From positions 1-12,960 of the forward strand of contig JAJBTR010000179.1 in NCBI GenBank assembly GCA_020860745.1: a stretch of 12,960 nucleotides of DNA. Reading direction: 5' to 3'. The translations under genes were made by a program, and so were the position numbers. The DNA is from Lachnospiraceae bacterium. Lineage in GTDB: Bacteria; Bacillota; Clostridia; Lachnospirales; Lachnospiraceae. Below, in pieces: positions 4,246 through 12,960 of the stretch; positions within the stretch are counted from its first letter, which is position 1; every line of letters starts with the position of its first letter. Below the pieces are notes generated by a model, which saw only the letters and a list, made by a program, of their open reading frames with translations, had not been told where the DNA came from and did no database searches.

Positions 4246-4280
4246 TACATTGATGTAGTGATTCACAGAATATGTATATG

Positions 4281-4466
4281 GAAAACTGAACCTCATATCC
4301 AAGGCAGACGGTAGGAAGAGTTTCGTCATCTTTCCGAGCATAGTGTTTGCTGTTGGAGCACTGTTTGAGCCTGTTTACAGGCGAGTTTGCGGAAACAGCA
4401 AACGACAGGCGGCGGGGGAAAGATAGAAACTCGACGTGTCCGCATTGGATATGAGGTTTAGTTTTC
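4281..4466 (+). repeat. Structured repeat element, copy 1 (long imperfect hairpin)
   Basis: This 186-nt stretch folds back on itself at several nested levels. The outer arms 4281-4302 and 4445-4466 pair over all 22 positions, with one G-U. Inside, GAGTTTC (4318-4324) pairs with GAAACTC (4426-4432), ATCTTTCC (4328-4335) with GGAAAGAT (4417-4424), and GTTTGCTGTT (4345-4354) with AACAGCAAAC (4394-4403). The apical hairpin is GCCTG/CAGGC (4369-4382). The same core, in opposite orientation and with different stem sequences, recurs at 6890-7078. The element begins 35 nt after the uvrC stop and ends 24 nt before the hprK start. It could be a structured RNA, an mRNA processing site or a palindromic mobile repeat. 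I do not recognise the family. Confidence 0.85.
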
Positions 4467-4473
4467 TCTAAAC
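4456..4473 (+). promoter_or_regulatory. Small hairpin before hprK that competes with the repeat's outer stem
   Basis: GTTTAG (4456-4461) pairs perfectly with CTAAAC (4468-4473) around TTTTCT. Its left arm is also part of the 3' outer arm of the large hairpin (4445-4466), so the two folds exclude each other. The hprK Shine-Dalgarno GGGAGG (4479-4484) starts only 5 nt downstream. A switch affecting hprK translation is possible but inferred from geometry alone. Confidence 0.35.
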
Positions 4474-4490
4474 GATAAGGGAGGAACGTT

Positions 4491-5444
4491 ATGCAGAAAG
4501 TCAGTGTGGCGAAATTCGCAGAGCACATGCGCCTGGAATGTCTGACACCGGGGATTGATATAACAGAACGCTATATCACAAAATCAGAGGTTAACCGTCC
4601 GGCGTTGGAACTGACTGGTTTCTATGAGGGCTTTGCAAGTGAGCGCATTCAGGTGATCGGTAAAGTAGAATCCGCTTACATGGAGCTTTTACCGAAAGAG
4701 ATCAGTATGCTGCGTTTTCAGCAGCTTATGGAGCACGATATCCCCTGCCTGGTTCTCTGCCGGGGATACCAGCTGCAGAAAAAAGGATTTGAACTGGCGA
4801 TACAGCGCGGGATCCCTGTGCTGGGTACCAGGCGTTCCACGTCTGATTTTCTCTCAGAGGCAATTCATTACCTCAGCGGGGAGCTGGCGCCCAGCATTTC
4901 CATCCACGGCGTGCTGGTGGATGTTTACGGTGAAGGAATTCTGATCATGGGGGAGAGCGGCATCGGAAAGAGTGAGGCAGCTCTTGAACTGGTCAAGCGC
5001 GGTCACCGTCTGGTTACGGACGATGTGGTGGAAATCCGGAGGCTGAGCAACAACTCCCTGGTCGGGAGAGCGCCGGCAATCACACAGTATTTCATTGAAC
5101 TGAGAGGTATCGGAATCATTGATGTCAAAACATTGTTCGGCGTTGAGGCGGTGAAAGAAAAACAGACGATTGACCTGGTGATCAAGCTGGAAAACTGGGA
5201 AAAAGAGCATGAGTACGACCGTCTGGGGCTGGAGGAGGAATATACGGAAATCCTCGGTACACAGGTCGTCTGCCACTCGATTCCCATCCGGCCGGGACGT
5301 AACCTGGCGATTATCTGTGAGGCGGCGGCTGTCAATCATCGTCAGAAAAAGATGGGCTACAACGCGGCACAGGAGCTCTACCGCCGCGTGGAGAAGAATT
5401 TAAAAGAGAGCCGGGAAGCTGAGACCTGGCAGCAGAATGAATGA
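4491..5444 (+). CDS. hprK: HPr kinase/phosphorylase
   Basis: Bifunctional cytoplasmic enzyme that phosphorylates HPr on its regulatory serine and removes that phosphate by phosphorolysis. It thereby controls catabolite repression and sugar uptake in Gram-positive bacteria. The 317-residue length is normal. An N-terminal domain (about 1-130) precedes the kinase domain. Catalytic features align one position off the Lactobacillus casei numbering: His139, P-loop GESGIGKS 154-161 with Lys160, Glu162, Asp177-Asp178, Glu203 in the signature ELRGIGIIDV, and Arg244. All key residues are present. The start is fixed by GGGAGG 6 nt upstream of the ATG. The next gene starts 16 nt after this stop, so the two are almost certainly cotranscribed. 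Its HPr partner is not encoded in this window. Confidence 0.97.
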   Translation: MQKVSVAKFAEHMRLECLTPGIDITERYITKSEVNRPALELTGFYEGFASERIQVIGKVESAYMELLPKEISMLRFQQLMEHDIPCLVLCRGYQLQKKGFELAIQRGIPVLGTRRSTSDFLSEAIHYLSGELAPSISIHGVLVDVYGEGILIMGESGIGKSEAALELVKRGHRLVTDDVVEIRRLSNNSLVGRAPAITQYFIELRGIGIIDVKTLFGVEAVKEKQTIDLVIKLENWEKEHEYDRLGLEEEYTEILGTQVVCHSIPIRPGRNLAIICEAAAVNHRQKKMGYNAAQELYRRVEKNLKESREAETWQQNE

Positions 5445-5460
5445 ACAGGAGGATATGAAA

Positions 5461-6867
5461 ATGATCAGAAAAAATGCGTGGGAAAAATATACGGAAGAGG
5501 AGCGGGCGCAGGTGTTTGCTTTTGCGGAAGAGTATCGGAGCTTTCTTTCTTCCTGCAAGACGGAGCGCGAATGTGTGACACAGCTGAAAGCGCAGGCGGA
5601 AGCAGCCGGATTTACGGATATGGAGGAAGTGATGGCGCAGGGAATTACATTGAAGCCCGGCGACCGGGTCTACGCGGATAATAAGGGAAAAAATCTGGCC
5701 TTATTTGTCATCGGCAGCAAGCCCTTTGAGGAGGGGATGAATATCCTTGGCGCGCACATCGATTCTCCCCGGCTGGATCTGAAGCAGAATCCACTCTATG
5801 AGGATACCGATCTGGCTCTTCTGGATACGCATTATTACGGCGGCGTTAAGAAATACCAGTGGGTGACTCTGCCGTTGGCGATACACGGTGTGGTGGCGAA
5901 AAAAGACGGGACTGTGGTGACGGTCAATGTCGGTGAGGATCCGTCTGACCCGGTTTTCGGTATCAGCGATCTGCTGATTCATCTCTCCGCGGAGCAGATG
6001 ACGAAGAACGCGGCAAAGGTGATTGAGGGTGAGGATATGAATGTCCTTGTCGGCAGCGTTCCGCTGAAAGCCGACGATGCAGATGACGAGAAGAAAAAAG
6101 AAGAAAAGCGCAGAGTGTGCGCCAATGTACTGCAGATTTTGGGAGAAAAGTATGGGATTGAGGAGGAGGATTTCCTCTCCGCGGAGATCGAGATTGTTCC
6201 GGCGGGGGAAGCGAGAGATTATGGTTTTGACCGAAGCATGATCATGGGGTACGGTCATGACGACCGCGTCTGCGCATATCCCTCCTTTGCGGCGATGCTT
6301 GAGATGGATGTGCCGGAGCGGACCAGTGCCTGCCTTCTGGTAGACAAGGAAGAGATCGGCAGCGTCGGCGCTACCGGAATGGAGTCCCGCTTCTTTGAAA
6401 ATATCGTGGCCGAGATTATGAATGCCTGCGGAGATTACAGTGAACTGAAGCTGCGCCGCGCATTGCAGAATTCCTGTGCCCTGTCCTCGGATGTCAGCGC
6501 GGCGTACGATCCGAACTATCCGTCGGTCATGGAAAAGAATAATTCTGCATATTTCGGAAAAGGGCTTGTGTTTAACAAGTATACCGGATCCCGCGGAAAG
6601 TCCGGATCGAATGATGCGGGAGCGGAGTATGTGGCGCATGTCCGCAACGTGATGGATTCTTCCGACGTATATTTCCAGACGGCGGAGCTTGGCAAAGTAG
6701 ATGCGGGCGGCGGCGGAACGATCGCGTATATCCTTGGCAATTATAATATGCAGGTGATTGACAGCGGTGTGGCGGTGCTGAATATGCACGCGCCCTGGGA
6801 GATCATCAGCAAGGCAGATCTCTATGAGGCGAAGCGGGGATATGTGGCGTTTCTGAAGAATGCATAG
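5461..6867 (+). CDS. apeA: M18 family aminopeptidase
   Basis: Metalloaminopeptidase of the M18 (aspartyl aminopeptidase) family, expected to remove N-terminal residues from peptides in the cytoplasm. Residues below use the 468-residue form. Metal-site motifs run in the expected order: GAHIDSPRLD with His99 and Asp101; YGHDDRVCA with Asp267/268; DKEEIGSVGATGM with Glu297/298; SSDVSAAYDPN with Asp344; and LNMHAPWE with His443. A short charged run about 205-217 (DDADDEKKKEEKR) looks like a surface loop. The length fits the bacterial aminopeptidase 1 subgroup, for which apeA is the usual symbol. An ATG at 5437 overlaps hprK by 8 nt, but AGGAGG at 5447-5452 stands 8 nt before the ATG at 5461, so 5461 is preferred. 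Its place between hprK and murB is not the common Firmicutes arrangement. Substrate preference cannot be read from sequence. Confidence 0.92.
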   Translation: MIRKNAWEKYTEEERAQVFAFAEEYRSFLSSCKTERECVTQLKAQAEAAGFTDMEEVMAQGITLKPGDRVYADNKGKNLALFVIGSKPFEEGMNILGAHIDSPRLDLKQNPLYEDTDLALLDTHYYGGVKKYQWVTLPLAIHGVVAKKDGTVVTVNVGEDPSDPVFGISDLLIHLSAEQMTKNAAKVIEGEDMNVLVGSVPLKADDADDEKKKEEKRRVCANVLQILGEKYGIEEEDFLSAEIEIVPAGEARDYGFDRSMIMGYGHDDRVCAYPSFAAMLEMDVPERTSACLLVDKEEIGSVGATGMESRFFENIVAEIMNACGDYSELKLRRALQNSCALSSDVSAAYDPNYPSVMEKNNSAYFGKGLVFNKYTGSRGKSGSNDAGAEYVAHVRNVMDSSDVYFQTAELGKVDAGGGGTIAYILGNYNMQVIDSGVAVLNMHAPWEIISKADLYEAKRGYVAFLKNA

Positions 6868-6889
6868 AGAGGGTATACAATAACTATGG

Positions 6890-7078
6890 GAAAATCTGTG
6901 TATCGATTCCAATGCAGACACGGCAGAGATTTTCTACTTTTCTTCGCCGCTTATAGTCTGCTGTCTCCGCAAACTCGCACGTTCCGTGCTCAAACATGCT
7001 TCGACAGCAAACACTAGGCTCAGAAAACTTTCGAAAATCTGCCTAAAGTCTGCTTTTGGAATCGAACTACAGATTTTC
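6890..7078 (-). repeat. Structured repeat element, copy 2 (long imperfect hairpin, reverse orientation)
   Basis: This 189-nt hairpin lies in the spacer between the aminopeptidase and murB. GAAAATCTGT (6890-6899) pairs with ACAGATTTTC (7069-7078), TCGATTCCAA (6903-6912) with TTGGAATCGA (7056-7065), and GCAGAC (6914-6919) with GTCTGC (7048-7053). Further in, AGATTTTC (6927-6934) pairs with GAAAATCT (7033-7040), and GCTGTC (6960-6965) with GACAGC (7003-7008). The apical hairpin is GCACG-TTC-CGTGC (6977-6989). Read on the - strand it aligns along its whole length with the element at 4281-4466. The core words TAGTGTTTGCTGT, GTTTGAGC and GCGAGTTTGCGGA are shared, while most stem bases differ but still pair. 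It starts 22 nt after the aminopeptidase stop. Confidence 0.85.
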
Positions 7079-7131
7079 ATTACAGGTTTTCTATATAACG
7101 AAATGGAGCCTGGATGTAAATGGAGATAGTT

Positions 7132-12820: not shown

Positions 12821-12865
12821 AAAAGAAAGCGGCCGGAGAGAAATCTCCGGTCTCTTTCTTTTTCT
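12821..12865 (+). terminator. Strong intrinsic terminator of glnN
   Basis: CCGGAGA (12833-12839) pairs with TCTCCGG (12844-12850) around a GAAA tetraloop. AAGAAAG (12823-12829) pairs with CTTTCTT (12854-12860) after a 3x3 internal loop. A T-rich TTTCTT tail follows. It starts 77 nt after the glnN stop. Confidence 0.9.
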
Positions 12866-12960
12866 TAACAGGGTCAAACTGTGTGTAAAACCAGGCGCAT
12901 GATTTTTTGCATTTGTAAAAGTGATTGTAAAAAAATCTGTTTACAGGATTGGAAAAAAAG
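12866..12960. other. AT-rich region at the right edge with TGTAAAA words
   Basis: No gene is seen. TGTAAAA occurs at 12884-12890, 12914-12920 and 12926-12932. TTTACA at 12940-12945 forms an inverted pair with the last of these and could also be a -35 box of a promoter cut off by the window edge. This is probably the upstream region of the next gene. Confidence 0.35.

Follow-up and report, generated by a model that had tools for sequence, protein, structure and literature searches.

Dispersed palindromic elements with a conserved multi-loop core, probably a new family of non-autonomous mobile DNA, in Lachnospiraceae

Results

Two copies of one hairpin

We analyzed a 12,960-nucleotide stretch of DNA from a Lachnospiraceae bacterium (contig JAJBTR010000179.1), which is called the window throughout. 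Its genes are arranged in the order ftsH, uvrC, hprK, an M18-like aminopeptidase gene, murB, whiA and a lipid kinase gene. The same ~190-nt hairpin was found in the uvrC-hprK and aminopeptidase-murB spacers, in opposite orientations, with the following features.

4281 to 4466, plus strand: copy 1, uvrC-hprK spacer; fold z -9.3; covariance-model core at 4304-4445, 146.4 bits
4281 to 4303, plus strand: outer left arm of copy 1, pairing with 4446-4466 in the fold; absent from the sister species G006, where the right arm is found
4336 to 4343, plus strand: conserved block GAGCATAG of copy 1, with most columns at least 90% conserved in 82 rows
4363 to 4370, plus strand: conserved block GTTTGAGC of copy 1, on the 5' side of the apical hairpin, from the sequence and the alignments
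4381 to 4393, plus strand: conserved block GCGAGTTTGCGGA of copy 1, on the 3' side of the apical hairpin, from the sequence and the alignments
4446 to 4466, plus strand: outer right arm of copy 1; G006 retains its counterpart without the core or the left arm
6890 to 7078, minus strand: copy 2, aminopeptidase-murB spacer; fold z -9.5; covariance-model core at 6912-7053, 126.4 bits
6869 to 7117 (approximate borders), no strand: stretch missing from the sister species G001 and G006, with the flanks joined in both

The first-pass annotation had described a single element present in both spacers in opposite orientations. Its positions were right, the two copies could be aligned end to end, and the fold z was about -9.4. 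Folding of copy 1 (4281-4466, plus strand) gave an energy of -86.9 kcal/mol (z -9.3), while the segment containing copy 2 (6880-7100, minus strand) gave -90.3 kcal/mol (z -9.5), and 0 of 200 shuffles were as good in either case. By blastn against the host genome, window positions 4275-4475 matched positions 6908-7056 with 76% identity (E 4.9e-22). Both copies contained the conserved blocks and the compensated stem changes that the annotation had pointed out. The conserved portion was a core of ~140 nt, at 4304-4445 in copy 1 and 6912-7053 in copy 2; outer arms varied among copies. A search of the whole window against Rfam with E up to 1 returned nothing at either copy and only two sub-threshold CsrC matches near 12.8 kb. 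The core likewise had no Rfam 15 match in the window (E up to 1) or at 11 further loci (E up to 0.1 or 1), and the Rfam check that the annotation had suggested thus turned up no named family.

Copy number and spread

A blastn search of the host genome with the element gave 15 matches, some of which were fragments of one copy or the complement of the query itself. A covariance model built from nine copies gave 12 hits in the host (G000), one of which was the palindromic C333 copy hit again on its other strand. The model found hits in 8 of 20 genomes of the genus and in 30 of 299 sampled Lachnospiraceae genomes, the host included in both counts, so that further copies do occur in the host and its relatives. 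Up to 10 candidates per genome were scored for the element in the family sample (up to 14 for the GA-cis RNA discussed below), so that per-genome counts are lower bounds, and two single-contig genomes had at least 10 element hits each. A pattern scan identified at least 115 stretches in named genomes and two in viral sequences. The covariance model, applied to 117 pattern loci, gave 50 hits within 77 loci, and none of the remaining 40 matched it. The two viral contigs were rejected as carriers since they fit the pattern and failed the model, and copy 1 matched nothing in plasmid or phage collections. Contigs with model-confirmed hits were titled Lachnospiraceae, Clostridiales, Blautia or Eubacterium. 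For the analyses below, 16 partial or second copies of one locus were removed by hand from 138 hits and 10 host copies were added, giving 132 copies with 122 distinct cores; the disrupted C362 copy of the host was left out of the 122.

Anatomy and covariation

The core consists of helices of variable sequence between the conserved blocks GAGCATAG, TGTYTGAGC, GCGAGTTTGCGGA, a CGGCG-rich stretch and ACGTGT. The outer arms are copy-specific, lengthen the palindrome by tens of bases and differ even between copies with similar cores. Wherever ends were defined, the element measured 240-547 nt. The Lapin MAGs, from rabbit gut judging by the name, carried 13 copies of a larger kind, 252-547 nt long, that had TTCGTGTWTAGT as terminal repeats and comprised several modules, and at two of five Lapin loci searched (L090 and L100) a full-length match to the Rfam GA-cis RNA lay on the other strand.

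Covariation held up when more copies were aligned. Among 82 distinct rows, 44 of 44 modelled pairs showed changes on both sides, and 93.4% of cells were paired as compared to 34-51% in slid and 66% in shuffled controls; this alignment was fitted to the covariance model and is therefore tilted in its favour. When 11 copies were aligned independently with MAFFT, 25 of 42 pairs showed changes on both sides. Columns at least 90% conserved made up 20 of 51 unpaired columns and 13 of 88 paired ones.

Mobility and comparison of sister species

In the genome G284 we found four copies of a 240-nt element with the terminal inverted repeat GACAAACGCATGAAT at different places, three of which had one to three changes at an end of the repeat. 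Three of the four had identical cores, and the arms travelled with the core. Two copies had shared flanking stretches of 10 and 11 nt, situated one to three bases outside the terminal repeat, while the longest stretch shared among 12 mismatched flank pairs was 5 nt. Judging from these repeats, the two copies fit target duplications of 9-10 nt. Flank sharing was 5 and 3 nt at the other two copies and 3-5 nt at the 13 Lapin copies, like mismatched flanks. Terminal inverted repeats with defined ends were seen in the G284 and Lapin lineages, which are not the lineage of the window copies. The Lapin-014 MAG had 67 matches, with up to one mismatch, to a terminal repeat other than GACAAACGCATGAAT. 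Terminal-repeat matches were found in G341.

We compared the host sites with those of the sister species. At the uvrC-hprK site the element was present in G001 and only the right arm remained in G006, while at the aminopeptidase-murB site both species lacked the element. The whole element was kept at C170 in both species and at C131, C25, C42 and C81 in G006. G001 had part of one arm at C131, one arm and part of the other at C25, a bare hairpin at C42 (both arms, a 3-nt loop and no core) and a poor alignment at C81. At C60, G006 had a different hairpin and no hairpin was seen in G001; at C333, both arms and core were missing in both species. Since several empty sites keep arms, they may be deletions, and leftover arms at sites lacking the full element are best read as deletion scars. 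The uvrC-hprK site had suggested that insertion always copies a target arm, an idea at odds with the aminopeptidase-murB and C333 sites. Orthologous Lapin MAG sites that were 93-95% identical in their flanks held elements with different shells (L090 and L078) or the same element inverted in place (L042 and L117). One G324 locus was compared with two relatives, both too diverged to define a junction.

The element is short, dispersed and multi-copy and has no internal transposase gene, as a MITE does, and it looks like a small mobile repeat more than an ordinary RNA gene. Both window copies are probably members of a new Lachnospiraceae family of dispersed DNA palindromes that are non-autonomous and MITE- or BOX-like, and in which a multi-loop core is conserved while the shells are specific to each lineage. 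The first-pass annotation had proposed an undescribed structured RNA, an RNase III processing site or a dispersed palindrome mobilised by a transposase whose gene lies elsewhere. The last of these fitted best: it is supported by many copies lying in either orientation, by terminal inverted repeats and some apparent target duplications seen in other lineages, and by presence or absence between sister species, whereas the search for a transposase, given below, found none. Against the mobile palindrome we also count the ordinary flanks of two G284 and all 13 Lapin copies, the sites that may be deletions, the G-T excess in some of the mismatch counts below, and a core kept family-wide in shells that are not, a combination unexpected for a plain MITE. 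It is conceivable, though we hold it only tentatively, that the 140-nt core is itself the mobile module, a loop-coded DNA hairpin that would be recognised by a factor common to Lachnospiraceae and taken up into transposon shells that vary with the genus, its stems co-evolving at the DNA level.

RNA-level or DNA-level pairing

Compensatory change is widely regarded as the best sign of functional RNA, and the annotation had also proposed an undescribed structured RNA. On that reading the conserved loops bind a protein or a ligand and the stems covary under selection for the RNA fold. The double-sided changes, the excess of paired cells over slid controls and the conservation of unpaired columns all speak for it. 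We counted helix-internal mismatches strictly in a strand-symmetric arm alignment. The 122 copies had 87 G-T and 67 A-C mismatches (p 0.13), which is nearly symmetric, whereas SRP RNAs of the same bacterial family (30 loci out of 38 genomes with a match) had 12 and 1, respectively. Loose counts gave a G-T excess for the element (320 versus 246, p 0.002) that would favour RNA, but the same counts were 20 versus 23 for SRP RNA, so the loose version does not discriminate. The model-fitted alignment also had a G-T excess, both in helices 1, 4, 7 and 8 (48 versus 16) and over all pairs (233 versus 29), the latter being driven partly by fixed columns and the fit favouring G-U. Wobble cells numbered 212 of 960 in the SRP consensus structure and 233 of 3449 in the element, the two structures being derived differently. 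The near-equal strict counts favour pairing at the DNA level, and an RNA, above all one made from either strand, is possible. The mixed orientation to genes (below), the differences in copies between sister species and the lack of an Rfam match to the core in the window and at the 11 further loci also count against a structured RNA. Taken together, we regard a structured RNA as unlikely.

The annotation had cautioned that template switching can homogenise palindrome arms, and this caution found support. The C333 apex folded as a perfect 26-bp inverted repeat closed by a 4-nt loop, and no other of the 122 copies had a perfect repeat of this kind of at least 16 bp around a loop of 0-6 nt. Together with the in-place inversion in L042/L117, the C333 apex is likely a footprint, not proof, of template switching. 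In the available text of two studies (PMC8604942, PMC8794818), this process homogenises arms, inverts spacers and makes multi-base compensations. Eight orthologous comparisons (three at C170, not independent) gave 35 compensated double changes against 6.5 expected if the sides were independent; 2 double changes broke the pair, and half of the 46 single changes were pair-breaking. We infer template switching in the element from the one homogenised copy, the one inversion and this excess, although selection for pairing would yield the same excess. With such footprints, covariation alone is not enough to infer an RNA function here. Stem evolution faster than neutral, suspected by eye at C170, was rejected: in the eight comparisons stems changed by ~11% per side, at or below the flanks, some C170 flank values (0.66-0.71) coming from poor alignments.

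Search for a driver

No driver transposase or autonomous copy emerged from 399 flanking ORFs or from a Y1_Tnp search. The 399 ORFs, taken within 2.5 kb, formed no clear element-linked family when clustered, the largest cluster covering 13 loci and the clusters being unannotated. Among the genomes of the genus, Y1_Tnp was detected in 5 of the 8 bearers and in 3 of the 12 without the element, which would suit a REP/BIME-type element that a REP-associated tyrosine transposase (TnpA_REP/RAYT) copies in the form of single-stranded DNA. The extragenic location, both orientations, the 3'-end bias and close inverted pairs in several genomes are likewise in keeping with REPs, as far as the available text on them goes (PMC8266576, PMC3116915). 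However, Y1_Tnp was not seen in three of the eight bearers (G001, G004 and G018, MAGs 92, 79 and 91% complete), and no element core occurred at the ten Y1_Tnp loci examined out of 17 matches, so a RAYT/HUH driver was dropped for want of a strict link. The available text of one study gives REPs as 20-50 nt, most often with GTAG in front (PMC8266576). The element, in contrast, is much longer (~190 nt with a 140-nt core) and has GTAG merely in an internal loop of some copies, TTAG in others, rather than a GTAG-type head. The flanking repeats of G284, the apparent target duplications of one lineage, do not fit either, and we think a REP-type origin improbable.

Position relative to genes

The 122 distinct copies lay in tandem (62), convergent (25), divergent (2) or unclear (24) spacers or overlapped an ORF call over 900 nt (9); these are raw counts from mechanical ORF calls, with related copies not independent and without a genome-wide baseline. 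Of the 89 copies that could be classified, 2 lay between divergent genes. The copies in tandem spacers had no fixed orientation, 34 being on the same strand as the genes and 28 on the opposite strand. The outer arms were usable in 94 of the 122 copies for counting T-tracts. Both hairpin feet had T-tracts in 20 of 94 copies versus 6 of 94 random window pairs, one foot in 28 versus 32, and neither in 46 versus 56. The rarity between divergent genes and the tracts at both feet are what a bidirectional transcription terminator or an mRNA 3'-end stabiliser, selected at gene ends, would show. On the other hand, 46 copies have no tract and 28 have one, both sister species dispense with copy 2, and a terminator has no need of a conserved 140-nt core with fixed loops. 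Terminator as well as RNA roles are possible for the element, but selection as a terminator or stabiliser is very unlikely to explain the family. Insertion of the core into the loop of pre-existing hairpins such as terminators, with arms of host sequence, is also very unlikely: the bare C42 hairpin of G001 and the different arms on like cores suggest it, but deletion explains the bare hairpin equally well, the arms move with the core in G284, and arms as well as core are missing from the two relatives at the aminopeptidase-murB and C333 sites.

Discussion

Our preferred reading is that the element is a non-autonomous mobile palindrome. It would be moved in trans by a transposase, probably of the DDE type, and would settle at the 3' ends of genes because insertion is tolerated there. 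Complementarity of the arms may be held mainly at the DNA level, by template switching between arms, by selection for a DNA hairpin or by both, and some copies may have incidental effects on transcript ends.

Among known systems, MITEs and the BOX and RUP repeats of Streptococcus pneumoniae come closest in kind. In the available text of PMC3049150 BOX and RUP are short and tightly folded, with paired terminal inverted repeats and MITE features, BOX being modular, and pneumococcal repeats are over-represented between convergent genes. Our element shares this description; unlike BOX and RUP, it belongs to another host and has a ~140-nt core recognisable family-wide in shells that differ by lineage. 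Hairpins maintained by template switching, as the accessible parts of PMC8794818 and PMC8604942 describe them, also show compensations of several bases, homogenised arms and inverted spacers, but those are in RNA genes and yeast coding DNA, whereas here a mobile repeat is concerned. The Rfam GA-cis RNA (RF02987) is structured, dispersed and multi-copy in some Lachnospiraceae and forms a module inside two of these elements, yet it is another family model with no match to the core. In the 299 genomes the element was found in 30 (up to 10 scored candidates each), GA-cis in 21 (up to 14) and both in 3, which is about chance. In the literature searched, with subscription papers mostly outside it, we found no description of this family.

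A repeat family with very strong covariation, the biology of which points to mobile DNA, is a case in which coupled changes in hairpin stems do not have to imply RNA function. The family is a natural data set for separating selection from template switching. It also prompts the question of whether GA-cis, a dispersed repeat in its behaviour here, is simply an RNA gene. If the core should be the mobile module, some RNA families defined by covariation alone, perhaps including GA-cis, may be mobile DNA hairpins. For the Lachnospiraceae themselves, the finding gives a label to an intergenic repeat of common gut bacteria.

Among the matches listed, six close pairs of cores (the ~140-nt conserved part of the hairpin element) lay in opposite orientation, at loci L217, L222, L225, L205, L177 and L221. 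The order along the record was minus, then plus, in all six, with gaps of ~190-530 nt, and in one pair the second member was a weak match. At another locus, L211, the outer palindrome lacked its right half and had other sequence in its place, downstream of the core at 1927-2063; this replacing sequence presumably resembles an insertion-sequence end. Two copies in a single genome, G272 (L405 and L406), had 140 nt of 5' flank in common, 140 nt being the stretch compared, and this common flank suggests that the element extends further here or that a segmental duplication took place.

Sub-threshold CsrC matches were returned by the Rfam search on both strands at 12822-12867 of the window; these are probably due to chance, the stretch there being palindromic.

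Two of the larger elements, at L090 and L100, were found to contain the Rfam family GA-cis RNA (RF02987) as an internal module:

L090:2578-2660, minus strand, GA-cis RNA module, Rfam match
L100:5483-5565, minus strand, GA-cis RNA module, Rfam match

In the family sample, GA-cis RNA was present in 21 of 299 genomes. Since seven of these 21 had at least 10-14 GA-cis matches each among the scored matches, and since matches fell on both strands and formed tandem runs in some genomes (G250, G304), GA-cis RNA behaves like a dispersed repeat in this sample.
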